NCBI GenBank assembly: GCA_022486625.1
Contig: JAKVKH010000001.1
Coordinates: forward strand, 1-64,000
Origin: Butyrivibrio sp.
Lineage (GTDB): Bacteria; Bacillota; Clostridia; Lachnospirales; Lachnospiraceae
DNA: 64,000 bases
Direction of reading: 5' to 3'
Numbering within the stretch: the stretch's first letter is position 1; each line of letters opens with the position of its first letter. Of this stretch, positions 29,658-53,007 are shown in pieces. A program made the translations under genes and the position numbers. Below the pieces are notes generated by a model. It was not told where the DNA came from. It was given only the letters and a program-made list of their open reading frames with translations, and searched no databases.

Positions 29658-29835
29658 GATTATTTCAGAATTTTTTTGGGGGGAGGTATGAAGTGATATC
29701 ACCACACAGTATCGGAATATTAATTCTCTTGCAGTCTATTTAAACATTAATGAGTATGCGGTATAATGTTAATAAGTATAGCTTCATACACACATGAAAG
29801 GCTGCTGCGGTTCTGGTAATGTGGAGGGCAATGGC

Positions 29836-32800: not shown

Positions 32801-32988
32801 TACGTGGACTTCACAGGGCGGATGCCTCTGAGATACCGATTATTGCAATGACGGCAGATGCTTTTTCGGCAGCACTTGAACATAGCAGAGAAATCGGAAT
32901 GAATGATTATATTACAAAGCCGATTGATCCGCAGCAGCTGCGTCAGACGTTGGAGAAGTATATTAAGAAGAGCAGCAGAATAGGATAG
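29836..32988 (+). CDS. Multi-PAS hybrid sensor histidine kinase
   Basis: I place the start at ATG 29836, 7 bases after GGAGGG; an ATG at 29794 lacks a site. The 1050-residue protein is cytoplasmic, with about four PAS-like modules (first at about 5-115, with CPWC-type cysteines), then HisKA with His676 in SRISHDIRTP, a HATPase with NLLSNAVKYTPPGG, DTGIGM and GTGLGL, and a C-terminal receiver with Asp974 in LMDIQMPVMNG. No output domain is present. A TATAAT at 29762-29767 marks a possible promoter. Its role is unknown; the PAS modules suggest a redox, energy or small-ligand cue. Confidence 0.88.
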   Translation: MEAFSEEQLFLIDHSSCIIYVIDADTYELLYANAEALSVWDEKEYQGRTCYEFINSRKNPCPWCSVPIMKNGNCHVEAAYSPQQDVWFTIDCIEMKWAGRKAIAVYARDITKQQKQREKLELDIRNIDGILGNIPGGVAVFSDRNGKIHLEYTNDGFYEIHFGSRCFWNSQSEDPVNWIQKEDRRFFEEAFQRVKSGEVEKGSATYRVLGEDGKVHWVNQQFCRAYVVDGIQNYYSSFTCLDEQMQKENARIETRRIYESAVEEARLFVWEYDIKMHRVTMAENEFSKYDYRKFGLPKVVENAPGSLIPYIDERYVDVFLEMYRKVENGEPEASCDIWYKFGVGTEPRCEHIAYTTIYDENGRPVKAYGIGQNITAQMVERENYQRLYQQVSSTFPDTVSSSQLNLTKNRYIKGYSIFPQVLKRLETVTADEHFRAAAAAVTVCRLQTELLATFNCAHLLEMFKSGKSEFSKEYPVRASGGGIVWVNTVVHLLQNPDTGDVEALTCTTDVSRRKKDEEIIARFAENGCDFIGIIDPAEAVFEMHYGVWDCKECQQGQKVEFEGIRHLLSETYVTGENVEDFLKETMLSEILKSLQQNAQYTVTYDYREPGNDEPCMKKQLRFLWMNTEQDEILVIQNDITDVYRTEQKKMRQMQEAVLEAEKASSSKSEFVSRISHDIRTPISIISSMTQFAFEDMENHEKLRSDLRKIEASNTFLLSLINDVLDISKIDSGKIELHLMPYIYADYISNIRNMFEPLCAQKSIQFEILREPEKNVILVDPTRLNQITLNLLSNAVKYTPPGGKIVFSAGTQMQEDGRVTCEIRVKDTGIGMSHEFQQKMFEPFTQEYDNPKRDKGSTGTGLGLSIVKKLVDLMKGTITVQSELGKGTEFVLRFSTEIATAAKNDGSGRDAEEQEAEKKLEGVVLLAEDNPINTEIARRILESIGVSVVHGENGKEILELFEDAAPDTFVAILMDIQMPVMNGYEATEAIRGLHRADASEIPIIAMTADAFSAALEHSREIGMNDYITKPIDPQQLRQTLEKYIKKSSRIG

Positions 32989-34683: not shown

Positions 34684-37281
34684 ATGGTACAGGGAAGACT
34701 GAAAATCTTTTTCGGATATGCGGCAGGGGTGGGAAAAACCTATGCAATGCTGGATGCAGCGCTGGATGCGAAAAAGGCGGGAATTGATGTTGTGGCAGGT
34801 TTTGTGGATACACATCAAAGACCACAGACAAAGGTGCTGTTGGATAAAATAGAGAAAATTCCGGTTCTGCAGATAAATGCAGCTCAGGAGCTGAATGCAG
34901 ATGCGGTAATTGAAAGAAAACCGCAGCTGGTGCTGGTGGATGACCTGGCACATGTCAATGACAGGGGATGCAGGCATCTTGGGCGTTATCAGGATGTGGA
35001 AGAACTGCTTAAGGCAGGGATCAATGTCTATACCACGGTGAATCTGGAAAATATCGAAAGCCTTAATGATATTGTGGCATCCGTAACCGGGAAGCCGGCC
35101 ACGGAGCGTATTCCGGATTCTGTTTTTGATCAGGCGGATCAAGTGGAACTGATTGATATTGAGCCGCGGGAGCTGATTGCCAGAGAAACAGGAAAATTGC
35201 CGGAAGAAGATAATGAGAAAACCGGAATGCTGACAGCGCTTCGTGAAATTGCGCTGCGGCGCTGTGCAGACAGAGTAAACCGGCTGAATAATGAGAAAAA
35301 TGAAGCAGCAGGAAGTGAATTCCGGGTGGATGAGCATATTCTGGTCTGTCTGTCACCGGCACCGTCCAATGCGAAGATTATCCGGACAGCAGCAAGAATG
35401 GCAGCGGCTTTCAAAGGCAGTTTTACCGCATTGTATGTGGAAACACCGGATTTCGGCGACATGCAGGAGGAAGAAAAGAAAAGACTCTGGGAAAACATGC
35501 ATCTGGCACAGCAGCTGGGTGCCCAGATCCAGACAGTATATGGCAGTAATGTACCGCAGCAGATAGCGGAATTTGCAAAGGTTTCCAACGTATCCAGGGT
35601 GGTGATCGGCAGAAGCAACGCCAGAACCGGAAGATTTTCAGTGAAAAAGGCATTGACAGAGAAACTGATCGAAAATGCACCGGATCTGGATATTTACATT
35701 ATTCCGGATGGAATGGCAGAAGCAGGTTACAGGGAGAGAAAGACGCATGTAACGGATTTTGTCACATCAATCAGGGATGGCTTTCGAACTGCAGGTGTGA
35801 TCCTGCTTACCACCCTGATCGGATTTGCATTTTCCAGACTCGGGTTTACGGATGCCAATATCATTACAGTGTATATTCTGGGAGTGCTGATTATTTCCGT
35901 GATTACTTCAAACCGTTTTTACAGCCTGATCGCATCTGCGGTCAGTGTATTGATGTTCAATTTCTTTTTTACTGTACCAAGGTTTACATTCCGTGCATAT
36001 GAAAACGGGTATCCGGTAACATTTGCAGTAATGTTTCTGGCGGCCTTTATCATGGGGTCACTTGCAGCGAAACTGAAGGATCAGGCAAGAGAATCTGCAC
36101 AGTCTGCATACTGGACAAGGGTCCTTTTTGATACCAATCAGCTTTTGCAGAAGGCAAGAGGAAAAGAAAAAATTCTTTCGGAGACAGCGAATCAGCTGGT
36201 AAAGCTGCTGCAGAAGAATGTGATTGTATACCCGGTACAGGAGGGAAAACTTGGGAAACCTTCTGTTTTCCTCAGAGAGCCGGGAATGTCAGATAATGAA
36301 TGGATTTCGGAAGAGGAGCGCAAGGTTGCACAGTGGGCGTTTCGTAACGGTAAACATGCAGGAGCAACGACAGATACCTTTTCGGCTTCAAGATGTCTTT
36401 ATCTGACAATCCGCATTAACCAGAGAGTTTACGGAGTGGTTGGAATTGTGGCCGGTGTGCAGCCACTGGATGTTTCAGAAAACAGCATGCTTCTTTCAAT
36501 TCTGGGAGAATGTGCGCTTGCACTTGAAAATGAGCGTAATGCGGCAGAGAAGGAGGAAGCAGCCATCGCTGCAAAGAATGAGCAGTTGCGGGCAAATCTG
36601 CTGCGCACCATATCGCATGATCTTCGCACGCCACTGACTTCAATTTCCGGAAATGCCAGTAATCTTCTGTCCAATGCGGATCAGTTTGATGCAACTACAA
36701 GAAAACAGATCTATACAGACATTTATGATGATTCCATGTGGCTGATTACACTGGTCGAAAACCTTCTGGCGGTTACCAGGATTGAAGAAGGACACATGAA
36801 TATCAGTATGACCTGTGAACTGATGGAAGATGTGATTGCAGAGTCGCTTCGTCACATCAACCGTAAAAGTGTGGAGCATCATATTACGGTCAGCAGTGAC
36901 AATGATCTGATTCTGGCCAGAATGGATGCAAGACTGATCATTCAGATGGTGATCAATATTGTAGATAACGCCATTAAATATACACCTGCGGGATCGGAAA
37001 TTTCGATCCGAACATGGAAGGAGCAGGGCTTTGTTCATGTCAGTATTGCTGATAATGGACCGGGAATTCCGGATGAAGTCAAGGCGCATGTGTTTGAAAT
37101 GTTTTACAGAGGGAAAAATAAAATAGCAGACAGCAGGAGGAGCCTTGGGCTTGGTCTTGCACTCTGCAGGTCAATTGCCGGTGCACACGGCGGTGAAATA
37201 ACGGTAACGGACAATATTCCGCATGGTGCGGTGTTTACATTTACATTGCCTGCGGCAAGAGAGGTAAAAATGAATGAATAA
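34684..37281 (+). CDS. kdpD: KdpD-type potassium/turgor sensor kinase
   Basis: The 865-residue protein has the full KdpD plan: N-terminal KdpD domain with Walker A GYAAGVGKTYAM and Walker B LVLVDDLAHVN (usual DELAH changed to DDLAH), a universal-stress-like domain (about 215-345), four membrane helices (about 370-475), a GAF-like part, HisKA with His645 in RTISHDLRTP, and a HATPase with DNGPGIP and GLGLAL. KdpD senses low potassium or osmotic stress and phosphorylates KdpE. It overlaps kdpE by 8 bases. No kdpFABC genes are in the window, so the target may be the trkA run. Confidence 0.93.
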   Translation: MVQGRLKIFFGYAAGVGKTYAMLDAALDAKKAGIDVVAGFVDTHQRPQTKVLLDKIEKIPVLQINAAQELNADAVIERKPQLVLVDDLAHVNDRGCRHLGRYQDVEELLKAGINVYTTVNLENIESLNDIVASVTGKPATERIPDSVFDQADQVELIDIEPRELIARETGKLPEEDNEKTGMLTALREIALRRCADRVNRLNNEKNEAAGSEFRVDEHILVCLSPAPSNAKIIRTAARMAAAFKGSFTALYVETPDFGDMQEEEKKRLWENMHLAQQLGAQIQTVYGSNVPQQIAEFAKVSNVSRVVIGRSNARTGRFSVKKALTEKLIENAPDLDIYIIPDGMAEAGYRERKTHVTDFVTSIRDGFRTAGVILLTTLIGFAFSRLGFTDANIITVYILGVLIISVITSNRFYSLIASAVSVLMFNFFFTVPRFTFRAYENGYPVTFAVMFLAAFIMGSLAAKLKDQARESAQSAYWTRVLFDTNQLLQKARGKEKILSETANQLVKLLQKNVIVYPVQEGKLGKPSVFLREPGMSDNEWISEEERKVAQWAFRNGKHAGATTDTFSASRCLYLTIRINQRVYGVVGIVAGVQPLDVSENSMLLSILGECALALENERNAAEKEEAAIAAKNEQLRANLLRTISHDLRTPLTSISGNASNLLSNADQFDATTRKQIYTDIYDDSMWLITLVENLLAVTRIEEGHMNISMTCELMEDVIAESLRHINRKSVEHHITVSSDNDLILARMDARLIIQMVINIVDNAIKYTPAGSEISIRTWKEQGFVHVSIADNGPGIPDEVKAHVFEMFYRGKNKIADSRRSLGLGLALCRSIAGAHGGEITVTDNIPHGAVFTFTLPAAREVKMNE

Positions 37282-39192: not shown

Positions 39193-39207
39193 AGCATGCC
39201 GGCTTAT
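39178..39207. terminator. Probable bidirectional terminator
   Basis: AGCCGGCA pairs with TGCCGGCT across 11 bases. The stem covers the end of the GH3 gene and reaches the stop codon of the convergent LysR gene. The U-tract is weak (TATTTA), so efficiency is uncertain. Confidence 0.5.
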
Positions 39208-40172
39208 TTATGGCTGATACAGGTTCCCTTTGTATAAGACAGAAATGCTTTAACCGTCGGTGTCAGATACAGTGGATTTTTGTGATAAAAGGTAATTTCA
39301 CGGACGGCGAGCGGATCGTCAATTTTATAGAACATAACATCGTTTTCTGTATCCTGAGGCGTGGGAACAATATGGAGCGTAGTGTCACGGATAATGGAAA
39401 ATCCGTAGCCGTAAAGCGTCATATAATAAGTTGTGGGAATCTGATCCAGATACATGAAGACGTTCGGAGAAAAGCCGGCGTTTGCAAACAGCTGGAAGGC
39501 TCTGCCATACAGATCGCTTCCCTGACGCAGGGAGATAAAAGGAATCTGATCAAAATGTTTCAGGGATACGGCAGGAGTATCTGCAAGCCGATGCCTGCCG
39601 GACAGAATGTCCTTACTGGTCAGCCGGTACTTTTTCAGACGCTGATTGATTTCAAAATGGGCGGGAACGGCCAGAATCAGATGTTCATGTTGAAAGAACT
39701 GCTGCTGATATTCTTCAAAGCCAAGAGAATTACTGGTCAGAACAAGATCCAGTTTTCCGGATTTCAGAGACTGGGAAAGCTCTGCGTTGCTGGCACTTTC
39801 CATAAGACTGATCCGGATTCCGGGATGAAGTTCGGAGAAGGGACGGATATGGAGCGGCAGACTGTAACAGCAGTAGAATGTGCTGGTCCCGATATTCAGG
39901 GAGCCGGTATCAAGGCTTCGCAGGTTGTTGAAATAGGTCGTCATATTTTTCTTTACGGACAGGATTTCTTCTGCGGACTGAATGTAGAATTTCCCAGCCT
40001 GTGTAAGCTGGATGGGACTGCAGCTGCGATCAAAAAGTGTCGTACCGAGTTCGTGTTCCAGACGCTTGACAGTTGCACTGAGCGCCGGCTGAGAAATATA
40101 CAGTGCTTCGGCTGCCTTGGAGAAACTGCCACTCTGGTAGATCGCATAGACATATTCCATCTCTTTTATCAT
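39204..40172 (-). CDS. LysR-family transcriptional regulator
   Basis: The 322-residue regulator from ATG 40172 (AGGTG upstream) has the winged helix-turn-helix MEYVYAIYQSGSFSKAAEALYISQPALSATVKRLE (first 40 residues) and a periplasmic-binding-like effector domain. It diverges from the amino-acid importer across a 408-base gap holding a LysR-type box, so it probably controls that cluster in answer to an amino acid or a downstream acid. A longer in-frame start at 40241 would add 23 residues without an obvious site. Confidence 0.88.
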   Translation of the reverse strand: MIKEMEYVYAIYQSGSFSKAAEALYISQPALSATVKRLEHELGTTLFDRSCSPIQLTQAGKFYIQSAEEILSVKKNMTTYFNNLRSLDTGSLNIGTSTFYCCYSLPLHIRPFSELHPGIRISLMESASNAELSQSLKSGKLDLVLTSNSLGFEEYQQQFFQHEHLILAVPAHFEINQRLKKYRLTSKDILSGRHRLADTPAVSLKHFDQIPFISLRQGSDLYGRAFQLFANAGFSPNVFMYLDQIPTTYYMTLYGYGFSIIRDTTLHIVPTPQDTENDVMFYKIDDPLAVREITFYHKNPLYLTPTVKAFLSYTKGTCISHK

Positions 40173-40580
40173 GTCAGACACCTGCCTTTCTGATCTGATG
40201 TATATATCTGTTTTTATACACTGTTTTTTCGGTAACTTCAAGCAGAAGCCGGATTCATGAGCGGCGGCAAATGTTTTTCTGCAGGAGATATCCGGTGGAT
40301 AAACTGGTACTATACAAAATTTGTTATAACAGGTATACGTATTTTAATATTTGCGTTATGAGAGAAAGGATTTATAATCTAAAGCATGTCAGATGTACTG
40401 GTGAACATGTGACAGAAGAACTGAAGACCACAATTTCATGCAATTTCGTTTATGTACCGGCTGCTTTCGCCTGACATAATCATCCAACAAAGATGATGGA
40501 ATCAGAGAAAACCATGCCGGTATTTTTTTATTCTGAAAAATGCATGAAAGATACTGGAAGGGTATAAGGAGGAGAACAGT
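40173..40580. promoter_or_regulatory. Divergent regulatory gap with LysR-type box
   Basis: No gene is supported in these 408 bases. ATAC-N7-GTTAT at 40312-40327, within ACAAAATTTGT, is close to the ATAC-N7-GTAT form of LysR-type operators, and ATACGTATTTTAATATTTGCGTTAT-like repeats follow. The remaining 3' portion (40400-40560) could hold a leader, but I see no known riboswitch. Confidence 0.4.
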
Positions 40581-41468
40581 ATGATGAGAAGAAATGCAGT
40601 GGCAGAAAGGGCAGTAATGACAGCAGCGGTTTCCATGATGGTGGCAGGAATGCTTGCCGGATGCGGAAGCAGTCAGGCATCTGCAAAGTCAGCTGGAACT
40701 TCAGCAGATGGAACAACGGCATCGTCAGGCGTTAAGGTAATCAAAGTAGGGACAGGACAGTCTTTCGCACCATACTGTTATCTGGATGATAACAATAATC
40801 TGACCGGATATGATGTGGATGTACTTCATGCAATTGATGATTATCTTAAGGATTACAGCTTTGATATTCAGGGGCTTGATTTTAATACCTGTATTGTTTC
40901 CATTGATTCAGGGGCACTGGATATGGTTTCCTACCAGTTGGTACAAAGTGATGAAAGGAAGAAAAAGTATATTTTTCCGGATATGCCCTATTGCCTGTCT
41001 CCCTTGAGTCTGGTGGTAAAATCGGACAGCGGAATCAGTTCACTTGAAGATCTGAAGGGAAAGACCATTTACTCCACGCCGACGACCTATGAATATACAC
41101 TGCTGACAGCATATAACAAGGCACATGCAGACAGTCAGTTCAAGATCGAGGCAGTATCGGATATGACAACGGCAGATGAGTATAAAGGCATTTCAGACGG
41201 AACTGTAGATGCGGCACTTACCTATCAGACGGCGTACGATACCACAGTTCCGCAGCTGGGAATCAAAAATCTGAAAATGACGGATGCGGTTCTGGTAGAA
41301 GAATCCTATGAAATGATCAGACCGGATCTTACCGATTTCAGAGATGCCATGTCTGAAGCACTGAAGGCGTTGAAAGATAACGGAACGCTTAAACAGCTGA
41401 ATGAGAAATGGTTTAAGGATGATTATTTTACAAAATATGCTAATCTTGTGAACTATAAACTGAACTGA
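40581..41468 (+). CDS. Amino-acid ABC transporter binding lipoprotein
   Basis: This 295-residue protein has a lipoprotein signal ending LAGC (Cys28) and a family 3 solute-binding domain (GTGQSFAPYCYLDDNNNLTGYDVDV, read in part, and SLEDLKGKTIYS). It captures a polar amino acid outside the cell for the two permeases that follow. AAGGAGGAG precedes paired ATGs at 40581 and 40584; either may be used. The LysR gene diverges upstream. Confidence 0.92.
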   Translation: MMRRNAVAERAVMTAAVSMMVAGMLAGCGSSQASAKSAGTSADGTTASSGVKVIKVGTGQSFAPYCYLDDNNNLTGYDVDVLHAIDDYLKDYSFDIQGLDFNTCIVSIDSGALDMVSYQLVQSDERKKKYIFPDMPYCLSPLSLVVKSDSGISSLEDLKGKTIYSTPTTYEYTLLTAYNKAHADSQFKIEAVSDMTTADEYKGISDGTVDAALTYQTAYDTTVPQLGIKNLKMTDAVLVEESYEMIRPDLTDFRDAMSEALKALKDNGTLKQLNEKWFKDDYFTKYANLVNYKLN

Positions 41469-41480
41469 AGGAGCGTCCGT

Positions 41481-42185
41481 ATGAATTATTCTTATGATTT
41501 TGCATCAATACCGGATTATATGATCAAAATCATGACTGCGTTTCCGGTCACACTGGAAATTCTGCTGATTTCTCTCCTGATCAGTCTGCTTCTCGGCGCA
41601 GCGGTTGCTGCCGGATCGCTTGGCAGAAAGCCTGTAATAGTTGCTATTTCCAGAGGATATATTTCCTTCATGAGAGGAATTCCGACACTGGTGCTGATCT
41701 TTCTGCTGTATCTGGGGCTCCCCCAGATACTGCAGGGATGCGGGGTCAATATCAGCTCGTGGAACAAGATGTTTTTTATCATTGCCACGCTGGGACTGAA
41801 TACTTCCGCCAATATGGCAGAAATGATGCGTGCTGCATACCTGGCGGTGGATAAAGGCCAGCTGGAAGCTGCATACAGCGTCGGAATGAAGGGGACGACA
41901 GCATTTCGCAGAATCATATATCCGCAGGCATTCGGGATTGCAATTCCGATGCTGGGAAATAATATTATCAATCTGTTCAAGGAAACGTCACTTGCCTTTA
42001 CGGTAGGAGTGATTGACATTCTGGGTAAGGCAAGGGCAATTACCAGTGCCAGTTATGGTGCCAATAAACTTGAGACATATATCGCAACGGGGATTATTTT
42101 CTGGATTGTCTGTGTGGCGCTGGAACAGGGAAGCAAATACCTGGAAGGTGTATATACAAAGGGAAGAAAACAGGCAGCTTCTTAA
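41481..42185 (+). CDS. Polar amino-acid ABC transporter permease
   Basis: The 234-residue HisM/GlnP-type permease has about five membrane helices, FMRGIPTLVLIFLLYLGLPQ and the EAA loop EAAYSVGMKGTTAFRRIIYP. It lies 12 bases after the binding protein and 21 before the second permease, and forms half of the channel. Confidence 0.92.
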   Translation: MNYSYDFASIPDYMIKIMTAFPVTLEILLISLLISLLLGAAVAAGSLGRKPVIVAISRGYISFMRGIPTLVLIFLLYLGLPQILQGCGVNISSWNKMFFIIATLGLNTSANMAEMMRAAYLAVDKGQLEAAYSVGMKGTTAFRRIIYPQAFGIAIPMLGNNIINLFKETSLAFTVGVIDILGKARAITSASYGANKLETYIATGIIFWIVCVALEQGSKYLEGVYTKGRKQAAS

Positions 42186-42206: not shown

Positions 42207-42917
42207 ATGGATTTTGCATTTATGGCGGAAGCTTTTCCGCAGATTGTCGGGGCAATTCCGATCACGCTGCTGATGGTATTTGTATCTGCAGCCATCGGAT
42301 GGGTTCTGGGCCTTTTGTTTGCACTTGTCAGGCGGGCAGATGTACAGTTCTTTTCCCAGGCAGTTGCAGTATTCATTTCGTTTATGAGAAGTGTGCCTTC
42401 TGTGATCCTGCTGTATATTTCTTATTATGTCATGCCGGCTGTGATTTATTTTTACGGTCAGAACATTGGTATAGAGATCAATGTTTCCGGAATCCCTGCA
42501 GTGGTATATGCAATTGCAGCGCTCACCTTAAATCAGGCAGCATACGCTTCGGAGGTGTTTCGAAGTGCAATTGCAGCGGTGGATGAAGGGCAGTTCGAGG
42601 CCTCCTACAGCATTGGCATGAATAAGACACAGGCGCTGCAAAAAGTCATACTGCCGCAGGCCATGGCAACCGCCATGCCAAATCTTGGCGGATTGTTTAT
42701 CATGCTGATCAAGGATACTTCACTTGCCTATTATGTCGGCGTATATGAAATCACGGCAACAGCCAACCTGCTGTCCATGCCGACGCTTAATTTCATTGAG
42801 GCCTATATTATGACAACGGTGATTTATGAGGTACTCAGTTTTGTTTTCAATCAGATGTTCCGTGCGGAAGAAAATCATCTCAAGCGGTTCCGGGCGGTAT
42901 TGGCTGCACAGGTATAA
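42207..42917 (+). CDS. Polar amino-acid ABC transporter permease, second subunit
   Basis: The 236-residue permease has about five membrane helices, [19 protein letters not shown] and the EAA loop [20 protein letters not shown]. It differs clearly from the first permease, so the channel is a heterodimer. GGAGATGAG precedes the ATG. Confidence 0.92.
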
Positions 42918-42937
42918 GTGATAGAAAGGAGTCAGTG

Positions 42938-43702
42938 ATGGAATATATGGTACAGATTGATCACATTCATAAATCATTTGGAGATAACCACGTGCTGCAG
43001 GGAGTCAGCATGAACATTAAAAAGGGTGAGGTGGTCGTGATTCTGGGACCGTCAGGATCAGGAAAAACCACACTTCTTCGAACCATTAATTTCCTGGATG
43101 CCGCAGATGAGGGCAGTATTACAGTGAATGAGGCGAGGGTGGATGCACAAAAACACAGTAAGGCGCAGGTACTGGAACTTCGCAAAAAGACGGCAATGGT
43201 GTTCCAGAACTACAATCTGTTCGCCAATATGACCATATTACAGAATGTGATGGAGGGTCTTGTGACGGTCAGAAAATTCAAAAAGAGTGATGCAGAAAAA
43301 ATGAGTATGGAAATTCTGGATAAGGTAGGACTTTCGGAAAAGTATCATTGTTATCCGTCACAGCTTTCCGGTGGACAGCAGCAGAGAGCCGGAATTGCCA
43401 GGGCGCTGATTCTGGATCCGGATGTTATTTTGTTTGATGAACCGACCTCTGCACTGGATCCGGAGCTGGTAGGAGAAGTTCTGAATACCATCAAGGCAGT
43501 TGCACAGACAGGAATTACCATGATTGTGGTGACACATGAAATCGCATTTGCCAAAGAAGTCGCGAGCAGAGTGGTATTCATGGAGGGGGGAGTAGTGGTA
43601 GAGGAAGGAAAGCCGGGAGAAATTCTGGTTAATCCGAAGGAACCAAGAACACAGCAGTTCCTTAGCCGGATTACAGGCGGTATCAATCAGAAGAGTGCGT
43701 AA
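42938..43702 (+). CDS. Polar amino-acid ABC transporter ATPase
   Basis: The 254-residue ATPase has Walker [11 protein letters not shown]-loop VFQNYNLF, signature [15 protein letters not shown], Walker [15 protein letters not shown] and switch His in VVTHE. It powers uptake with the two permeases. ATG 42938 lies 6 bases after AAGGAG; a GTG three bases upstream is possible. The Amt-PII gene follows after 8 bases. Confidence 0.93.
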
Positions 43703-43710
43703 AGCGGGGG

Positions 43711-45408
43711 ATGACTATGACATTATCGGTGAATATGATCTGGATGGCACTGTGTACGGCACTGATTATTTCACTTCAGGCAGGTTTTACGCTGATGGAG
43801 GCAGGTTTTACCAGAGAAAAAAATGCCGGGGACATCATTATCAAGAATCTGTTGAATTTCAGTATATGTATGCTTCTGTTCTGGTTTATCGGTTTCGGAA
43901 TCATGTTCGGAAAGGGTAGTGGATTTGCCGGAAAAATAGATTTTTTCAGTATGGGTGATTATACGGAAAGCATTGCAGATGATGCATCATCAGGAATGTT
44001 CATTGCCATGCAGGGTGCAACTGCAGCAGTGATTATGGCAGTTGTGACGGGTGCAATGGCAGAACGCAGCAGAATGACGGCCGTGTGTGCATTCGGTGCA
44101 GTCATGGCGGCATTTATCTATCCGATTGCCGGGCACTGGACTATGGGCGGCGGGTGGCTTTCTGCAAATGGTTTTCACGATGCGGCAGGAGCATGTACGG
44201 TTCAGATGGTGGCCGGAATCGCGGCTTTTATCGGTGCAAAGCTTTTGGGACCCAGAAAGGGACGCTACGCAGAAAATGGAAATATTCATGCAATTCCGGG
44301 GCACAGTCTTCTGATGGGAACGCTTGGTGTTTTACTTCTGTGGACCGGCTGGTTTGGACTGATCGGTCAGGGAGGAACGGTACGGATTGGCAATGTATTT
44401 CTGAATACCAGTCTGTCTGTGGCGTCAGCTTCTGTGATTACGGTTCTGTATACGACCGGAAAGTATAAAAGACCGGATATCTCTCTGATTCTGAACGGCG
44501 TTATGGCAGGACTGGTTTCAATTTCTTCCGGATGTGATGAAGTAGCACCTGCAGGTGCCGTTATCATTGGAAGCATGGCGGGAATTCTGACGGTGAATGG
44601 CACGGTATGGATGGATCAGAAGGCAAAGGAAGATGATCCGATCGGTGCAGCTGCAGTATTCGGGCTGTGCGGAGGAGCAGGTACGATAGCAACAGGAATT
44701 TTCTCTACAAAAGGAGGACTTTTGTATGGTGGGGGAGGAAGTCTTCTGGCGGTCCAGATTATCGGTGTGGCGGCGGTTGTACTCTGGGTGTCACTGACCA
44801 GCTATATCACATTCAGGATTATTGACCATATTACAGGACTGCGGGTGTCAGAGGAAGAGGAAACGGCGGGACTTGGCATTTCATTTCAGGAAGCACCGCA
44901 TGATTATGTAGATCTGCTGCCGGAAGTCAAAGAGGATGCAGACTATGAGCATTCACTGAAAGCTACAGTGAAAGATATTCCGATTGATATTGCCATACCG
45001 GTCAGAGGAGCCATGCCGGGATCGGGAAACTGGGACGGAACAGCACTTACCAGAGTAGATATCCTCTGCAGACAGTCCAGATTTGAAGAGCTCAAGAGCG
45101 CCATGAATCGGATTGGTGTGACCGGAATGACGGTGTCTCAGGTACTGGGATGTGGAATGCAGAAAGGTGCAGCAGAGTATTACAGAGGAATTCCGATGGA
45201 TATACAGCTGCTTCCGAAAATGAGGGTTGAAATTGTTGTGGCGAAAATTCCGGTGTCAAAGGTTGTAAACTGTGCACGGAAAATACTGTATACCGGTCAT
45301 ATCGGAGACGGTAAAATATTTATTTATGATGTGCGGGATGCCATCAAGATCAGAACGGGAGAAACAGGCTATGCTGCAATGCAGGGCATAGAAGATGTTG
45401 TTTCATAA
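43711..45408 (+). CDS. Amt-type transporter fused to PII domain, with altered pore residues
   Basis: The 565-residue protein joins an Amt/Rh-type membrane domain of about 11 helices (about 5-390) to a C-terminal PII (GlnB) domain (about 450-565). The PII part keeps the Gln in GMQKG, the T-loop Tyr in YYRG, the B-loop GHIGDGKIF and the RTGETG end, so it should bind ATP and 2-oxoglutarate. In the Amt part, ungapped comparison with usual family motifs puts Gln165 (CTVQMVAG) at the first pore His, Phe317 (AAVFGLCG) at the second, and Met145 (HWTMGGGWL) at the Trp before GGG; Asp157 is kept. It may carry another substrate or act as a sensor. The ATG at 43717 is an alternative, better-spaced start. 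Confidence 0.88.
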   Translation: MTMTLSVNMIWMALCTALIISLQAGFTLMEAGFTREKNAGDIIIKNLLNFSICMLLFWFIGFGIMFGKGSGFAGKIDFFSMGDYTESIADDASSGMFIAMQGATAAVIMAVVTGAMAERSRMTAVCAFGAVMAAFIYPIAGHWTMGGGWLSANGFHDAAGACTVQMVAGIAAFIGAKLLGPRKGRYAENGNIHAIPGHSLLMGTLGVLLLWTGWFGLIGQGGTVRIGNVFLNTSLSVASASVITVLYTTGKYKRPDISLILNGVMAGLVSISSGCDEVAPAGAVIIGSMAGILTVNGTVWMDQKAKEDDPIGAAAVFGLCGGAGTIATGIFSTKGGLLYGGGGSLLAVQIIGVAAVVLWVSLTSYITFRIIDHITGLRVSEEEETAGLGISFQEAPHDYVDLLPEVKEDADYEHSLKATVKDIPIDIAIPVRGAMPGSGNWDGTALTRVDILCRQSRFEELKSAMNRIGVTGMTVSQVLGCGMQKGAAEYYRGIPMDIQLLPKMRVEIVVAKIPVSKVVNCARKILYTGHIGDGKIFIYDVRDAIKIRTGETGYAAMQGIEDVVS

Positions 45409-45439: not shown

Positions 45440-46435
45440 ATGAGAGTAAAACTATGTCAGGATGATCCGTTTGGCGGGGCACCGTCAAGGGCGGAAATCA
45501 TATCCTTCTGGAGAAAACAGCTGGAAGGTATTCCGGCAATTACATCAGTGGATATTGAAGAGAATTTTACGCCGGACAGAGCGGATGAAATAGCAGCGGA
45601 TTATGACATCCTTCTGGGGGCGTGGATTGCGGATGATCTTTTTGACAGGGCCTTTTTTGAACGACATCCGAATCTGAAGTATATCGCTACTTTCGGACAT
45701 GGATTCGGCAAATTTGATCATCAGGCAGCGCGGGACTGCGGTGTTACCATTACGAACACTGTATATGGAGATATGACCATTGCACAGTTCGCAATGGCGC
45801 TGCTTCTGGGAATCTGTCATCATGTGGAAACGGAAAGCAGTTATTACAATAAAATTCTGGATAAGAACATGAGCTTCAGAGCGGTACCGGGAGTGACAAC
45901 AAGGCAGATAGAACTATATGAAAAAACAATCGGAATTATCGGACTTGGCAGCATCGGTCTGTGGATGGCCAGAATGGCTTCCGGCTTTGGAATGAAGGTG
46001 ATTGCATACAGCAGACATAAGCGTGAAGGGGAAAAATACAGCTTTGTGGAGCAGGTTTCGCTGGAAGAGCTACTGCGAAGAAGTGATGTCATTTCCATTC
46101 ACTGTCCGCTGACGGATGACACCAGGGGAATGATTTCCGCACAGGCAATCAGCCGGATGAAAGACGGCGTAATCCTGATCAATACGGCAAGAGGGGCGAT
46201 TATTGATGAAACGGCGATGGTAGATGCCCTGAAGTCAGGCAAAATCTATGCCGCAGGACTTGATGTGGTAACCGGGGAACCAAGACATGACAGATCACCG
46301 GTATTTGACTGTCCCAATGCACTGATTACCGGGCATATTGCATGGGCACCTGCGGAGGCAAGATACAGAACCGTGAGAATTGCGGTTCAGAATATGAGAA
46401 ACTGGCTGGCCGGAAATCCGACCAGTGTAATCTGA
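45440..46435 (+). CDS. D-2-hydroxyacid dehydrogenase
   Basis: The 331-residue enzyme from ATG 45440 (GGATGGAG upstream) has the NAD-binding GLGSIGLWMARMASGFGMKV and the catalytic Arg in NTARGAIID, Glu in VVTGEP and His in ITGHIAW. It reduces 2-oxoacids to D-2-hydroxyacids or the reverse, in the cytoplasm. The next genes are PLP aminotransferases, so it may work on the 2-oxoacid made from the imported amino acid. The substrate is not readable from sequence. Confidence 0.9.
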   Translation: MRVKLCQDDPFGGAPSRAEIISFWRKQLEGIPAITSVDIEENFTPDRADEIAADYDILLGAWIADDLFDRAFFERHPNLKYIATFGHGFGKFDHQAARDCGVTITNTVYGDMTIAQFAMALLLGICHHVETESSYYNKILDKNMSFRAVPGVTTRQIELYEKTIGIIGLGSIGLWMARMASGFGMKVIAYSRHKREGEKYSFVEQVSLEELLRRSDVISIHCPLTDDTRGMISAQAISRMKDGVILINTARGAIIDETAMVDALKSGKIYAAGLDVVTGEPRHDRSPVFDCPNALITGHIAWAPAEARYRTVRIAVQNMRNWLAGNPTSVI

Positions 46436-46454
46436 GCAGCAGATGGAGGCGAGA

Positions 46455-47540
46455 ATGAATACAGAAGAAATTTTCAGCAGAAGTGTACTTGAAAAACCGG
46501 AATCCCAGAGAGCCAGCAGGTCTAATGCTTCACTTGATCTGACAAGACTCATGCGGCTTGGATGGAATGAAAATCCGTATGGAATGGCACCGGAGGTTTT
46601 AAAAACAATTCAGGAAGCAGCAAGGAAGGGACATCTGTATCAGGATTTCTGGTGCAGAGATGTAAAAAAGGCGATTGCAGATTTCTACGGAATGACACCG
46701 GAAAATGTAATTATGGGTGCAGGATCCAGTCCTCTGATCGAAATGACGGGGCAGGCTTTTATCAATCCGGGAGATGAGGTACTGATGTGTCCGACCTTTG
46801 CTGCATTCAATGATATGACGGAAGTAAGGCTCGGCAGGGTGGTAACTGTACCGCTTAAAGAAAACAAAGGCTATGATTTGAACGGATTGTTAAAGGCAGT
46901 GACTCCCAGAACCAAAATGGTGGTGATCTGTAATCCGAATAACCCGACAGGACAGTATATTCCCTATGAGGAGATTGTCAGCTTTATGGAAAAACTGCCG
47001 GAGGATATTGTAGTCTTTTTTGATGAAGCATATATCGAATTTGCAACGGCACCGGATTGCAGGAGTGCGGTGCCGCTGATCAGTCAGATGCCGGATAAGC
47101 CGATTATCGTATCCAGAACGTTTTCCAAATATTACGGAATGGCAGGAGTTCGCTGCGGATATCTGCTTTGCAGCAGAGAACTGGCAGCAGGGATCAGCAG
47201 GATCCCGGGAAGCTGGGTATCGAGAGATGCACAGGCCGGGGCAGTTGCCGCACTGAAAGAGCAGAAATATTATCAGAGTACGAAAAAGCAGATTGTGGAA
47301 GGAGTTGCATATCTGGAACGGGAACTTGCTGCACTTGGATGTACTGTATACCATACACAGACGAACTTTATCATGTTCGATCCGCATATTGACTGCGAAA
47401 AGGTCAGAGAGGAAATCATTGAACGAGGAATTCTGATCAGTATCCCCATGCTGTGCAGAGTATCTGTCGGGACAGAAACGGAAAATGAATATTTTATCCA
47501 GTGTATGAAGGACATACTGAAAAATGCAGCAGTTGCCTGA
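46455..47540 (+). CDS. HisC-like class I/II aminotransferase A
   Basis: The 361-residue enzyme starts at ATG 46455, 5 bases after GGAGG. It has the histidinol-phosphate aminotransferase plan: LGWNENPYGMAPEV, CNPNNPTG, DEAYIEF, and the PLP lysine in SRTFSKYYGMAGVRCGY. No other his genes are nearby, so a biosynthetic HisC role is unlikely; HisC-like enzymes also use aromatic amino acids and other amines. A second, diverged copy follows after 30 bases. Confidence 0.87.
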   Translation: MNTEEIFSRSVLEKPESQRASRSNASLDLTRLMRLGWNENPYGMAPEVLKTIQEAARKGHLYQDFWCRDVKKAIADFYGMTPENVIMGAGSSPLIEMTGQAFINPGDEVLMCPTFAAFNDMTEVRLGRVVTVPLKENKGYDLNGLLKAVTPRTKMVVICNPNNPTGQYIPYEEIVSFMEKLPEDIVVFFDEAYIEFATAPDCRSAVPLISQMPDKPIIVSRTFSKYYGMAGVRCGYLLCSRELAAGISRIPGSWVSRDAQAGAVAALKEQKYYQSTKKQIVEGVAYLERELAALGCTVYHTQTNFIMFDPHIDCEKVREEIIERGILISIPMLCRVSVGTETENEYFIQCMKDILKNAAVA

Positions 47541-47570: not shown

Positions 47571-48668
47571 ATGATTGATATTTCGGAACTTATGAGAGAT
47601 CCACTTAAGGAATCCAGAGCATATATTGCAGGACAGGCGATTCCGGCGGCACTCATGCAGCCGGGAGTTGTAAAACTCAACGCCAATGAGAATCAGTACG
47701 GCCCAAGTCCCATGGCAATCAAGGCAATGGCACGGGAGCTTCAGAATGGAAATCTGTATCCGCAGAGTGTGATGCAGGCACTTCGTGAAAAAATCGCATC
47801 GCATTATCAGAAAGATCCCGGACAGATTACCTTGTTCAATGGTTCAGGTGCGGCAATCAATGCAATCGGGGATACGTTTCTGAATCCGGAGGATGAGGTA
47901 CTGATCTGCTCGCCGACCTACATGGCATATGCGCCGCTTCCTTCAAGATTCGGGGCGAAAATTGTGGAGGTACCGGCACTGGAAGGACTTTATACGGATC
48001 TGGATGCATTGTATGGAGGAATTTCGGACAGGACGAAACTGATTTTCATCTGCAATCCGAATAATCCGACGGGGACACTGCTGAATCACCATGCACTGAA
48101 GAATTTCATTTATCACCTGCCGGAGCATGTGATCTGCGTCGTGGATGAAGCGTATTATGACTGGATTGATGTTCCCGGGTACGAGAGCGCTATGAACTTT
48201 ATTGATGAACGGAGCAAACTGATCGTACTCCGTACTTTTTCCAAAATATACGGAATGGCGGGCTGCAGAGTCGGATTTGCGGTTACGAATGAAGAAACGG
48301 CAAAGACACTCGGAACAGCGTCCAATCTGTTCTATACGAACAGGATCGGCGCTGCGGGAGCAATTGATGCGCTTGATGATACTGCATTCTGTAAAATGGT
48401 ATACCGCAATAACTGTGAGCAGCGGGAGTATATGAGCACAGAAATGGAAAAAATGGGAATTGACGTGGCACCAAGTCAGGCCAGCTTCATTTATTTCAAT
48501 GCACATTGCGATACGGATAAATGTCTGCAGGAACTGGAAGAAAAGCATATTTTTATCAGAACATTTCCTGCTTCGTGTCTCAGGGTCAGCATTGGAAGAC
48601 CGGAACAGAATCAGGCATTTCTTGATGCCATGAAAGAATTTCTGATCAGAAACCGGAAAGTTGCATAA
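47571..48668 (+). CDS. HisC-like class I/II aminotransferase B
   Basis: The 365-residue enzyme is a diverged neighbour of aminotransferase A, with LNANENQYGPSPMA, CNPNNPTG, DEAYYDW and the PLP lysine in LRTFSKIYGMAGCRVGF. Sequence identity is clearly partial, so the pair may use different substrates or form a heterodimer. GGGAGGAAACGGT precedes the ATG. It precedes the MATE exporter by 8 bases. Confidence 0.87.
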   Translation: MIDISELMRDPLKESRAYIAGQAIPAALMQPGVVKLNANENQYGPSPMAIKAMARELQNGNLYPQSVMQALREKIASHYQKDPGQITLFNGSGAAINAIGDTFLNPEDEVLICSPTYMAYAPLPSRFGAKIVEVPALEGLYTDLDALYGGISDRTKLIFICNPNNPTGTLLNHHALKNFIYHLPEHVICVVDEAYYDWIDVPGYESAMNFIDERSKLIVLRTFSKIYGMAGCRVGFAVTNEETAKTLGTASNLFYTNRIGAAGAIDALDDTAFCKMVYRNNCEQREYMSTEMEKMGIDVAPSQASFIYFNAHCDTDKCLQELEEKHIFIRTFPASCLRVSIGRPEQNQAFLDAMKEFLIRNRKVA

Positions 48669-48676
48669 AGCGGAAA

Positions 48677-50056
48677 GTGGTGGATGAATTGGCAGATGAA
48701 ATGTTGTTTGACGGAAAAAAGATCAGAAAGCTGATACTGCCGCTTGTGGTGGAACAGATGTTGGCGGTTACGGTAGGCATGGCGGATATGATTATGGTAT
48801 CCGGAGCCGGAGAGACGGCAGTTTCCGGAATTTCACTGGTTAATACCATCAGCAACCTTCTGATTATGTTTTTTTCGGCGCTTGCAACAGGAGGTGCGGT
48901 TGTATCTGCACAGTTTCTGGGTGCGGGGAATCATAAAAAAGCCTGTCATGCTGCAGGGGAGCTTTTAAGCATCTGTATTCTGACTTCTGTAGTCATTACA
49001 CTGATTTCTCTGATACTGAATCATCAGATTCTGCATCTGATTTATGGGAATGTCGAGCCGCAGGTGATGCAGAATGCCGTAACCTATTTCTATATTACGG
49101 CACTTTCTTTTCCGTTTCTGGCAGTGTACAATGCCTGCGCCGGATTGTTCCGATCTATGAATAATTCAAGAGTATCCATGGAAGTGTCAGTGGTAATGAA
49201 TTTTATGAATGTGGCCGGGAATGCAGTGTTCGTATATGGATTCCATCTCATGGTGGCGGGGGTTGCGCTGTCAACTCTGATCTCCAGAATGGCGGCATGC
49301 ATGATCATGTATCTTTTAATCAGAAGACCCGGATTTGAGATTCATATTACAGAAAGAGTAAATTTTCATCTGGATATGGAAACGGTAAGGGGGATTCTTT
49401 CCATCGGGATTCCCAATGCATTGGAAAACAGTATGTTTAATATCGGCAAGCTGATGACACAGAGTCTGATATCCGGATTCGGGACAGCATCAATTGCGGC
49501 AAATGCCTGTGCATCGACAGTAGAAACAATGGCAGATATTCCTTCCATTGCAATCGGTCTGGGTCTTGTGACGATGGTTGGGCAGTGCGCAGGTGCTGGA
49601 CGATATGATCAGGCAAGATTTTATGGCAAAAAAATGATGAAAACCGCGTATCAGCTGCTGGCAGTTACCAATATCCTGATTCTGGCAGGTGCAGGATTCA
49701 TTGCCGGTTGGTTCAATCTGTCAGAAGAAGGTAATACACTGGCCATCATCCTGATCCGTTATCATAGTGTCTGCTGCATGGCGATATGGCCGCTTGCGTT
49801 TACAATTCCCAGTATTCTGCGTGCTGCAGGAGATGCAAAATATACTATGACAATCAGTATTGTTTCCATGTGGATTTTCCGGATCGGACTGGCATATGTG
49901 ATCGGCGGATATATGCAGGAATATCTGCAGATGGGTGTTGTGGGTGTATGGATTGCAATGACAATTGACTGGGTGGTACGTGCTGTGTTTAATATTATCC
50001 GTTTTCGCGGACACAGATGGGAAGGAAAGGCAGTTACGCTTCAGGAGCCAGCTTGA
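48677..50056 (+). CDS. MATE-family multidrug/metabolite exporter
   Basis: The 459-residue protein has about 12 membrane helices in two halves (ILPLVVEQMLAVTVGMADMI and ILSIGIPNALENSMFNIGKLM, each typical of MATE proteins). It exports organic cations or small metabolites using sodium or proton gradients. The start is uncertain: GTG 48677 has no spaced site; TTG 48689 lies 5 bases after GTGG; ATG 48701 is another choice. As last gene of the amino-acid run it might export a product of the aminotransferase or dehydrogenase steps. Confidence 0.9.
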   Translation: MVDELADEMLFDGKKIRKLILPLVVEQMLAVTVGMADMIMVSGAGETAVSGISLVNTISNLLIMFFSALATGGAVVSAQFLGAGNHKKACHAAGELLSICILTSVVITLISLILNHQILHLIYGNVEPQVMQNAVTYFYITALSFPFLAVYNACAGLFRSMNNSRVSMEVSVVMNFMNVAGNAVFVYGFHLMVAGVALSTLISRMAACMIMYLLIRRPGFEIHITERVNFHLDMETVRGILSIGIPNALENSMFNIGKLMTQSLISGFGTASIAANACASTVETMADIPSIAIGLGLVTMVGQCAGAGRYDQARFYGKKMMKTAYQLLAVTNILILAGAGFIAGWFNLSEEGNTLAIILIRYHSVCCMAIWPLAFTIPSILRAAGDAKYTMTISIVSMWIFRIGLAYVIGGYMQEYLQMGVVGVWIAMTIDWVVRAVFNIIRFRGHRWEGKAVTLQEPA

Positions 50057-50145: not shown

Positions 50146-53007
50146 ATGATGTCATATGAGTGCTTATGCAGGAGCTTATACAGAGCAGAAAAGGACAGTG
50201 TCGGACGTATGTTCTTTTTTGCTCTTTTTATGATCGTTTTTTATTTGGGTACGGGGACGGGCAATTTTAAGGTATCTGCAGCAGAACCGGGACAGCGCAC
50301 AGTGGTGAAAGCCGGATTTTTTGAAAACGGCGATTTCATGCATAAGGATGCAGACGGAGAATATGAAGGCTATGATATAGATTACTATTATACAATTGCG
50401 GGATATGCGGGCTGGAAAATTGAATTTGTTGAATATGAAGGCGTAAATGATGCTGTAGCAGCACTGAAAAGAGGGGACATTCAGGTCCTGAGCGGACTGA
50501 CGGAGACGAAGGCGCGGGATAAAGAATTCCTGGTGTCAGAACAGAAGATGTGCACATCTGGGCTTGCAGTGCAGGTACGGGCAGATGAGGACAGGTTTGA
50601 TGTCAGTGATATTACGTCGATGGAGAATATGACCTGCGGAGTGCTGAAAGGGTCCAGTGTGGAGCAGCAGTATCGGCAGTGGTGCATTTTAAACGGACTT
50701 ACACCACATATTACTGAATATGACAGTATTACGCAACGTAATGAAGCGTTCTATGCCAAAGAGACAGATGCCATTGTGGCAGGTTCGACTATCGAAAATG
50801 CACAGAAGCTGGCTGAGGTTTCGTCAGTGGATCTGTATTTTATGTTCCATTGGGGAGAAACACAGTTAAAGAACAGTCTGGACAGTGCGATGCGGATTCT
50901 GGCACTGGAAAATCCGGATTATACACTCCATTTGAAGGAGAAATATTTTCCGGCAACAAGAAATGCAAAGCCCTCATTTACCGCAGCGGAAAAAAAATAT
51001 ATTCAGGAAAATCCGGTAGTCAGAATTGCTGTTCCGGTAAAAGATGAACCGTTCTGTCAGAAGGAGGGAGATACAGTTACGGGAATTTTGCCGGAATATT
51101 ATGCGCATCTGGGAGAACTTACAGGACTTACCTTTGAATGTGTGCCTTTCACATCCAAGGAAGAAGCCTGTGATGCCCTTATAAATGGAAAAATTGATGT
51201 GGCGGGTGTATTTGAATATGACAGCTATAGAGCACATAACCTGAATGTGATTCTGTCTCAGCCGTATCTGCAGATCAGCATGGTGCAGCTTACGCGTGCA
51301 GGAACAGACAGAATCTCCACAGTTGCCATGCCTGAACCGTATCAGGAATTTGTATCGGAAATCCTTCTTGGGCAGAATTCGAAGGCCAAAATTAAAGTGT
51401 ATGCATATAGCGATGAGTGCTTTGCTGCGCTTAAAAGCGGAGAAACGGATGCCGTCCTCTGTACACAGCCGGCGGCAACCTGGCTTCTGAACAGAAACCG
51501 GGCATCAGATTATGTACTTTCGGGTTTTGGCGGGAATGAAACATGGAATGTCAGTTTTGCCTTCGGGTACGGTGGAAAGGGGAATACACTTCGGTCTGTT
51601 TTGAATAAATCCATTCTGGCGGATCAGGGATATATCGATCAGCTTGTCAGCAGTGATATATTGCAGGATTCGGCAGATCTGGCAGGACTTTTCGACAGGT
51701 TGCCTGTATCAATTGTGGCGGCAATGGCAGGAATGGCAATGGCACTTCTGGTGATTGTGACAGCAGCACTGCTTATTATTGTCAGAAGAAGGCAGATAGA
51801 GAGAAAACTGGCAGCACAGCAGGTTGCACTTACGACTGCAATGGAAGAAACAAGGGCAAGGCATGCGTTTTTTGGTGCGATCAGTCATGATATGCGTACA
51901 CCGCTGAACGGAATTATCGGATTTACAGATCTGGCACTGAAAAGCGCAGATCTGCGGCAGATCATGGATTACCTGCAGAAAATTCACAGATCAGCGAATG
52001 TACTGAGCAGGCTCGTCAGTGATACGCTGATCATGTCCAGAATGGAAAATGGACAGTATATCCTCCATCCGGAGGAATGCAATATGAAAGAACTTCTGGA
52101 AGAAATTGCAGAGCCGGTGCGGGAAATGGCAATGGAAAAGGAAGTCAGTTTCAGGGTGCAGATCGAGGACAGCGCGGATCATTATGTATATGCAGACCGG
52201 CTGAGTCTCCAGCGCATTCTGCTGAACCTACTTTCAAATGCAGTTAAATTTACGCCAAATGGAGGATATGTCGCGCTTGATTATCAGTCTGAAAAGGATG
52301 GAAAAGAAAGCGTGATCACTGTTTCTGACAACGGAATCGGAATGAGCAGAGAATTTCTGCCGCATGCGTTTGAGATGCTTGCCCAGGAAAATCCGACTTC
52401 CGTAAGCATGGTTGGAAGTGGTATGGGACTTCCGGTAGTAAAGAGCATTGTGGATGCAATGGGCGGCACCGTTGAAGTTTCCAGCAGAAAAGGGAGTGGA
52501 ACGACATTTACGGTAAGACTGAATCTGGAAGAGAGGAAAGGATCGTCGGATACACAGAAAGAAATGCCGGAAGAAGAAAACTTAAGTGGAAGACATATTC
52601 TGGTCTGTGAAGATAATGAACTGAATCTGGAGATTATCAGGCAGATTCTGGAGATGCAGAAAATAACGGTAACTGTGGCAGAGAACGGAAAGGCCGGAGT
52701 TCAGGCATTTAAACAGAGCGCTCCTTACTTTTATGATCTGATTCTGATGGATCTGCGGATGCCGGTTATGGATGGCAAAACGGCAGCACATACCATTCGT
52801 ATGCTGCAGAGAGCGGATGCTGCAGATATTCCGATTCTGGCAGTTTCAGCGGATGCATATCAGGAAAATGTGGATGAAAGTATTGAAGCGGGCATGAATG
52901 GACATATTTCCAAGCCCGTGGATGCGGTAAAACTGATTCATACAATATTCAAATTCATTCAGTCATATGATAAGATAAGACAGGAACAGAAAAATGAAAA
53001 GACATGA
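50146..53007 (+). CDS. Hybrid histidine kinase with tandem solute-binding domains
   Basis: The 953-residue protein resembles BvgS/EvgS. A signal or anchor segment (about 20-45) is followed by two family-3 solute-binding domains (about 50-270 and 285-520), a membrane helix (about 523-548), HisKA with His581 in AISHDMRTPLN, a HATPase with NLLSNAVKFTP and DNGIGM, and a receiver with Asp869 in LMDLRMP. The first two domains probably bind an amino acid directly, outside the cell. It starts 89 bases after the amino-acid cluster, so it may sense the ligand that the cluster imports. No output domain is present. AAGGAG precedes ATG 50146 by 7 bases. Confidence 0.9.
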   Translation: MMSYECLCRSLYRAEKDSVGRMFFFALFMIVFYLGTGTGNFKVSAAEPGQRTVVKAGFFENGDFMHKDADGEYEGYDIDYYYTIAGYAGWKIEFVEYEGVNDAVAALKRGDIQVLSGLTETKARDKEFLVSEQKMCTSGLAVQVRADEDRFDVSDITSMENMTCGVLKGSSVEQQYRQWCILNGLTPHITEYDSITQRNEAFYAKETDAIVAGSTIENAQKLAEVSSVDLYFMFHWGETQLKNSLDSAMRILALENPDYTLHLKEKYFPATRNAKPSFTAAEKKYIQENPVVRIAVPVKDEPFCQKEGDTVTGILPEYYAHLGELTGLTFECVPFTSKEEACDALINGKIDVAGVFEYDSYRAHNLNVILSQPYLQISMVQLTRAGTDRISTVAMPEPYQEFVSEILLGQNSKAKIKVYAYSDECFAALKSGETDAVLCTQPAATWLLNRNRASDYVLSGFGGNETWNVSFAFGYGGKGNTLRSVLNKSILADQGYIDQLVSSDILQDSADLAGLFDRLPVSIVAAMAGMAMALLVIVTAALLIIVRRRQIERKLAAQQVALTTAMEETRARHAFFGAISHDMRTPLNGIIGFTDLALKSADLRQIMDYLQKIHRSANVLSRLVSDTLIMSRMENGQYILHPEECNMKELLEEIAEPVREMAMEKEVSFRVQIEDSADHYVYADRLSLQRILLNLLSNAVKFTPNGGYVALDYQSEKDGKESVITVSDNGIGMSREFLPHAFEMLAQENPTSVSMVGSGMGLPVVKSIVDAMGGTVEVSSRKGSGTTFTVRLNLEERKGSSDTQKEMPEEENLSGRHILVCEDNELNLEIIRQILEMQKITVTVAENGKAGVQAFKQSAPYFYDLILMDLRMPVMDGKTAAHTIRMLQRADAADIPILAVSADAYQENVDESIEAGMNGHISKPVDAVKLIHTIFKFIQSYDKIRQEQKNEKT

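Follow-up and report, generated by a model that had tools for sequence, protein, structure and literature searches.

In E. coli, the ammonium channel AmtB and the PII protein GlnK are separate proteins, and their reversible binding blocks a working pore (PDB 2ns1, 2nuu). In the canonical Amt-PII fusions of Lachnospiraceae and related families, the two partner folds lie in one polypeptide, which keeps the Phe gate, the S1 ammonium site, the twin-His pair and the C-terminal motif. In Ks-Amt5 (PDB 6eu6), an Amt module with a fused cytoplasmic domain has turned from transport to signalling; its description (PMC5764959) and a review (PMC10433425) indicate that transport is lost, that the filter, Phe gate and His pair are kept, and that ammonium is bound at an added site. 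Here we describe Q, an Amt-PII fusion encoded in a 64,000-nucleotide stretch of Butyrivibrio sp. DNA (contig JAKVKH010000001.1, positions 1 to 64,000; hereafter the window). Q has the domain order and length of the canonical fusions and shares its operon type with some of them, and its PII domain is 76-81% identical to theirs in the closest group; in contrast to them, it has lost the Phe gate, the S1 site, the twin-His pair and the C-terminal motif. We consider it about an even chance that Q serves as a non-conducting trimeric membrane anchor, keeping a functional PII sensor next to an amino-acid importer. The gene and its parts are as follows:

43711..45408, + strand, Amt-PII fusion (Q) with lost pore; open reading frame of 565 codons, likely true start 43717
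43738..44880, + strand, Amt (PF00909) membrane domain; residues 10-390, 293.7 bits, 11 predicted transmembrane helices
44143..44145, + strand, M145 at AmtB W148 (S1 ammonium site), from alignment with AmtB
44203..44205, + strand, Q165 at AmtB H168 (first twin-His), from alignment with AmtB
44659..44661, + strand, F317 at AmtB H318 (second twin-His), from alignment with AmtB
44875..44913, + strand, changed C-terminal Amt motif (GLG..HDY; GLD..HG..AY in canonical fusions)
45049..45363, + strand, PII (PF00543) domain; residues 447-551, 76.1 bits, ligand and T-loop residues kept

The second ATG, at 43717, is more likely the start than that at 43711, because an upstream GGGGG stretch is well spaced for it and P0001, a close relative of Q described below, also begins there. 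Both domains were recognized by profile match and by predicted fold, including the 11-helix Amt fold. The score of Q against the NCBIfam ammonium-transporter model TIGR00836 was 299.2 bits, below the curated cut-off of 343.3; P0121, another pore-less protein, scored 137.1 bits, and three canonical fusions tested scored 424.7-440.3 bits.

Using E. coli AmtB from NC_000913 as the residue ruler, we found that Q carries the changes F103M, F107T, W148M, H168Q, F215L, N216I and H318F and has lost S219, whose column holds G in one alignment and a gap in two others; about 8 residues of the periplasmic loop bearing S219 are missing. The S1 site (F107, W148, S219) and the Phe gate (F107, F215) are replaced by T104, M145, L217 and the loop deletion, and the C-terminal motif differs from that of canonical fusions by D389G, E392F, H393Q and F402L. 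Q104, D160 (as D157), W212 and D310 are retained. A preliminary description of the window had noted the absence of His, His and Trp at three motifs together with the retention of the supporting Asp157, and these positions fall on AmtB as it proposed (Q165, F317 and M145 on H168, H318 and W148; D157 on D160). The alignment of the Amt domain is not free of gaps, the loop at S219 being shortened. No histidine was present in transmembrane helix 5 (161-179) or 10 (311-331) in the sequence of Q, with the helices taken from the predicted model. Chance or misalignment was rejected, as four alignments give Q the same letters at H168, H318, W148 and F107. An error of assembly was also rejected because P0001, which is 90% identical to Q and lies on a different contig, is altered at the same positions; P0121 and P0253 are pore-less as well. 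Judged from sequence, the ammonium-pore determinants of Q have been lost, and the doubt already expressed about ordinary ammonium conduction is reinforced, with a loss that reaches beyond the three residues to the Phe gate, the S1 site and the C-terminal motif. According to PMC3647058, neither AmtB nor Mep2 supports growth on ammonium once Ala has replaced both histidines.

This loss is rare in a common class of proteins. Matches to Q at E<=1e-100 were found in 171 of 392 genomes of the order, some of the listed matches being Amt alone (e.g. G056), while at E<=1e-170 only 1 of 79 genus genomes (the window's own) and 9 of 397 family genomes matched. Both histidines were present in 206/209 rows of one alignment (Q twice and AmtB included), in 231/234 rows of a second and in 314 of 318 distinct fusions, a set of loci and proteins of at least 400 residues with distinct sequences and an exact PII motif. 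The search for other such fusions proposed earlier thus yielded three companions of Q, namely P0001, P0121 and P0253; P0002, a fragment with a 100% match to Q, was excluded by the length filters. Among named genomes, a contig scan gave 10 loci, and each of them has the canonical letters at the Phe, Trp and His positions. In the literature searched, no Amt-PII protein that naturally lacks the pore was found, and a phrase search for papers on Amt-PII or AmtB-GlnK fusions returned none, most subscription papers being outside the reach of both searches.

P0001 has the same letters as Q at AmtB 103, 168, 215 and 318 and S, V and V at 107, 148 and 216. P0121 is the protein of locus L121 in genome G763, and its database cluster holds 7 member sequences from 5 contigs. 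To Q it is 77% identical in PII but only 30% in Amt, where its identity to the canonical fusions compared is 24-26%. At AmtB 103, 104, 107, 148, 160, 168, 212, 215, 216, 219, 310 and 318, its letters are R, G, L, F, D, G, I, L, I, gap, D and Y; these depend on the alignment, because in two others some columns between 168 and 219 are gapped, and the G at 168 is a gap in three other alignments. P0253 (568 residues, 8 member sequences) has I, N, I, F, D, C, F, I, E, F, D and F at the same positions, with identities to the canonical fusions compared of 35-41% in Amt and 60-82% in PII. It had no match at E<=1e-170 in the 397 family genomes, a result that is uninformative on absence.

The PII domain had been described as intact, and our comparison agrees. 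Besides the PF00543 match, the equivalents of the ATP and 2-oxoglutarate residues Q39, K58, G87-K90 and R103 and of the T-loop R47 (the GlnK Arg47) are kept. The R101 position is Lys, as in canonical P0003, and the uridylylation Tyr51 is replaced by Met (Val in P0003). With these residues kept, the nitrogen control through PII that had been suggested is plausible. AlphaFold2 models revealed both Amt and PII folds for Q (predicted local distance difference test 75, predicted template modelling score 0.67) and for P0121 (82 and 0.71), with the linker and part of the T-loop poorly predicted.

The two halves have fared differently. Among sites 90% conserved in 247 canonical rows (P0253 removed), 69, 70, 139 and 109 of 205 Amt sites are broken in Q, P0001, L121 and P0253, respectively, against 2, 2, 3 and 7 of 58 PII sites. 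At the 95% level in 198 canonical fusions, 48 of 140 Amt sites and none of 34 PII sites differ in Q and/or P0001. Q and P0001 themselves differ at 5/119 PII and 48/376 Amt sites (p=0.006). Damage in Q is heaviest in the membrane-core third, with 20/41 sites kept versus 119/168 elsewhere (p=0.01; P0253 was still among the 248 reference rows in this test and in that of the cytoplasmic face below).

Such figures would be expected if the Amt half were a relic, dead weight in frame upstream of PII and heading to loss: 69 to 139 of the 205 near-invariant sites are gone, several pore positions differ between members, and the frame is kept in any case with PII downstream. We nevertheless regard this as unlikely. 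Mean hydropathy of the transmembrane segments is 1.36 in Q, 1.41 in P0001, 1.56 in P0121 and 1.57 in P0253 (1.28-1.46 in thirteen canonical fusions), and these segments hold 12, 14, 16 and 20 charged residues (10-15 in canonical fusions). In a neutral codon simulation with one start gene and a simple mutation model, 0 of 300 runs stayed as low in charge or as high in hydropathy as either of the two proteins compared, Q and P0121. The membrane character of the Amt half is therefore retained. The P0121 cluster, with its 7 sequences on 5 contigs, also speaks against a relic, as do the still-invariant Amt sites, which remain slower: they differ at 5/97 between Q and P0001 compared with 43/279 for the others (p=0.008), which argues that the Amt domain is constrained.

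The same contrast could reflect a pore re-lined to conduct or sense a different small molecule, for instance an amino acid or amine that the operon handles; in Q and P0001, the same new residue indeed stands at 38 of the 48 invariant Amt sites that have changed. No new lining, however, is common to all four members: in the order Q, P0001, P0121 and P0253, F103 is M/M/R/I, F107 is T/S/L/I, W148 is M/V/F/F and H168 is Q/Q/G/C. All four have an aromatic residue at position 318 (F, F, Y and F), which suggests a plugged rather than a re-tuned pore. We give re-lining a low probability, and because the four members line the pore differently, the earlier suggestion of another amine as substrate is disfavoured.

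A sensory role had also been suggested. The nearest solved structures are Ks-Amt5 (the best match), A. fulgidus Amt-1, AmtB-GlnK and Sd-Amt1. The output domain of Sd-Amt1, from Shewanella denitrificans, is a diguanylate cyclase. Like Q, Sd-Amt1 (PDB 8qj3, 8qj4, 8qpf; titled a receptor) is an Amt protein with an extra C-terminal part, but its output domain is not PII, and in the alignments with Q both 6eu6 and 8qj3 keep the Trp and both His that Q has lost. Ks-Amt5 differs further in its output, a kinase and not PII. Its added high-affinity site comprises Q24, E31, N47, D50, T51, T109 and T112 (PMC5764959); the equivalents in Q are Q23, E30, N46, N49, F50, A110 and T113, so that the site is incomplete. 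The D50 and T109 equivalents are lost in 4/4 pore-less members, whereas both are kept in 12 of the 13 canonical fusions compared. Ammonium sensing of the Ks-Amt5 type by the pore-less members is thus disfavoured, with filter, gate, His pair and D50/T109 all lost, while sensing through PII remains plausible. As a separate observation, the canonical fusions carry the Q24, E31, N47, D50 and T109 equivalents (12/13 of those compared; in P0032, D50 is N). E. coli AmtB lacks these residues in the alignment used, and the canonical fusions may bind ammonium at such a site and act as sensors themselves.

The surroundings of Q had been described as a run of amino-acid uptake and transamination genes, and the genes of an ATP-binding cassette (ABC) importer and two aminotransferases do flank it:

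39204..40241, - strand, LysR-type regulator, divergent
40581..41468, + strand, amino-acid ABC solute-binding protein (SBP_bac_3)
41481..42185, + strand, amino-acid ABC permease 1
42207..42917, + strand, amino-acid ABC permease 2
42935..43702, + strand, amino-acid ABC ATPase
45440..46435, + strand, D-2-hydroxyacid dehydrogenase (open reading frame from 45395; start 45440 inferred)
46443..47540, + strand, HisC-like aminotransferase 1
47571..48668, + strand, HisC-like aminotransferase 2
48677..50056, + strand, MATE-type protein (MatE proteins also occur in the L039 and L083 operons)

Searched with the operon's solute-binding protein, 397 family genomes gave 7 with a match at E<=1e-60, counting that of the window. 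Locus L121 of G763 holds LysR, solute-binding protein, two permeases, ATPase, pore-less Amt-PII, dehydrogenase and aminotransferase; its solute-binding protein, second permease, dehydrogenase and aminotransferase are 56, 70, 63 and 61% identical to the window neighbours, and the ATG of its fusion overlaps the upstream ATPase stop codon. The same order from solute-binding protein to aminotransferase surrounds a fusion with canonical pore in Hungatella hathewayi (L039), G369 (L083) and G458 (L110), and a partial operon, with no dehydrogenase match, surrounds one in Lacrimispora and in a Hungatella metagenome-assembled genome. In G695, the ABC genes had no fusion match within the 19.9 kb examined, and in G485 the contig ends inside the ATPase. 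Among the 6 genomes of the G763 genus, the only matches besides L121 have 33-35% identity and canonical pores.

Both genomes known to carry a pore-less form also encode a canonical fusion: that of G763 lies elsewhere in the genome, and the window's genome has two further Amt genes, one for a canonical-pore Amt-PII fusion (584 residues) and one for an Amt followed by a separate PII gene. Such company would allow the pore-less protein to mix into trimers with the same cell's canonical fusion, as a dominant-negative or structural subunit that tunes ammonium uptake. Human RhCE and RhD belong to the Amt/Mep/Rh family; they are believed to play a structural part rather than conduct ammonium, and to accompany RhAG in red cells. 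The RhAG-RhCE complex is a solved structure (7uzq), but these proteins, unlike Q, are eukaryotic, hetero-trimeric and without PII. RhD and RhCE may also be natural cases of twin-His loss, which was not found in passages of PMC3742762, PMC10985258 and PMC3003898. Q is only 45% identical in Amt and 55% in PII to its own genome's canonical fusion, and L121 Amt is 24-26% identical to canonical ones, identities at which a conserved hetero-trimer interface looks unlikely; moreover, Q is encoded beside an amino-acid importer and not beside the canonical amt gene. Mixed trimers consequently appear improbable to us.

We return to Q as an anchored PII sensor. The pore-residue loss, the PII-residue retention, the membrane character and the conserved operon on which this proposal is based are observed. 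The Amt half would conduct no ammonium by the Amt mechanism and would be kept as a trimeric anchor of PII. Three PII domains would be held at the membrane by the channel-like trimer, probably still binding ATP/ADP and 2-oxoglutarate, and would report the nitrogen and energy state of the cell to a partner in the membrane; the likeliest candidate is the amino-acid ABC importer whose genes lie immediately upstream. Cyanobacterial PII contacts the ABC ATPases NrtC, NrtD and UrtE (PMC6603209), and the AmtB/Mep2, Ks-Amt5 and cyanobacterial PII literature together favours a channel-anchored PII sensor beside an amino-acid importer. Q would separate ammonium conduction from the placement of PII at the membrane, roles normally mixed in Amt-GlnK pairs, so that placement becomes testable alone, and the four natural cases offer channels without pore residues that, as far as predicted, keep their fold. 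More tentatively, with a probability somewhat short of even, a few fusions, at least two of them in amino-acid ABC importer operons, may have abandoned conduction and kept the channel as a trimer scaffold for their own PII; a transporter would then have become a regulatory subunit of another transporter.

Several points weigh against this proposal. Preferential conservation of the Amt cytoplasmic face was not found (Q p=0.88, L121 p=0.18), which counts because a strict docking-scaffold model might predict it. The Amt half must stay in frame because PII is C-terminal, and an active role in the membrane is indicated chiefly by hydropathy. Contact between PII and the importer is suggested by the operon, and pore loss within this operon was seen in just 2 genomes, a count based on the contexts of Q and L121. 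Some leak through Q is possible because AmtB altered at the twin-His pair can let cations through in vitro; the doubly acidic variant is reported to become an unselective channel (both PMC9040831). Finally, a common origin of the pore-less members is not secure, and one or several losses are both possible. In a full-length tree, Q, P0001 and L121 formed a group (100/100) in which the branch leading to L121 was very long. A PII-domain tree joined the same three with support of 99/98, a clade that we withdrew: with P0253 added, the tree was largely unresolved, neither three nor four were recovered as a group, and constraining them together was neither required nor rejected (p-AU 0.373 and 0.369). 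Q shares 61 broken Amt sites with L121 (p=2.7e-6) and 53 with P0253 (p=9e-7), an overlap expected from common descent or from common release of the same pore sites, and the 17 sites common to Q, P0001 and L121 were judged too few as proof of a shared pore loss.

Milder departures occur among the canonical fusions. That of the window's own genome (L002:979-2733, - strand) has E at AmtB Q104. In 32 of 203 rows (e.g. L015-L018, L089, L090), canonical fusions have Q104 replaced by N and S219 by A; this less severe alteration of the ammonium-binding site is found in several relatives, including species of the window's genus. P0230 and P0158 show single departures at W212 (L) and F215 (I), respectively, and are otherwise canonical. 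In G541 (L112:7465-10881), the gene directly after an Amt-PII fusion encodes another Amt of the ordinary kind, and the two carry the canonical letters for Trp and His (as read from the L108 sequences).

Around the fusion region, promoter- and terminator-like counts were at about the level of shuffled sequence. Directly downstream of the operon, 50146-53007 (+ strand) encodes a hybrid histidine kinase with an SBP_bac_3 sensor domain, which may sense an amino acid similar to that of the operon. It is one of four large hybrid histidine kinases on the + strand of the window, the others lying at 2203-4260, 29794-32988 and 57602-60640, and a KdpD gene is present at 34684-37281.
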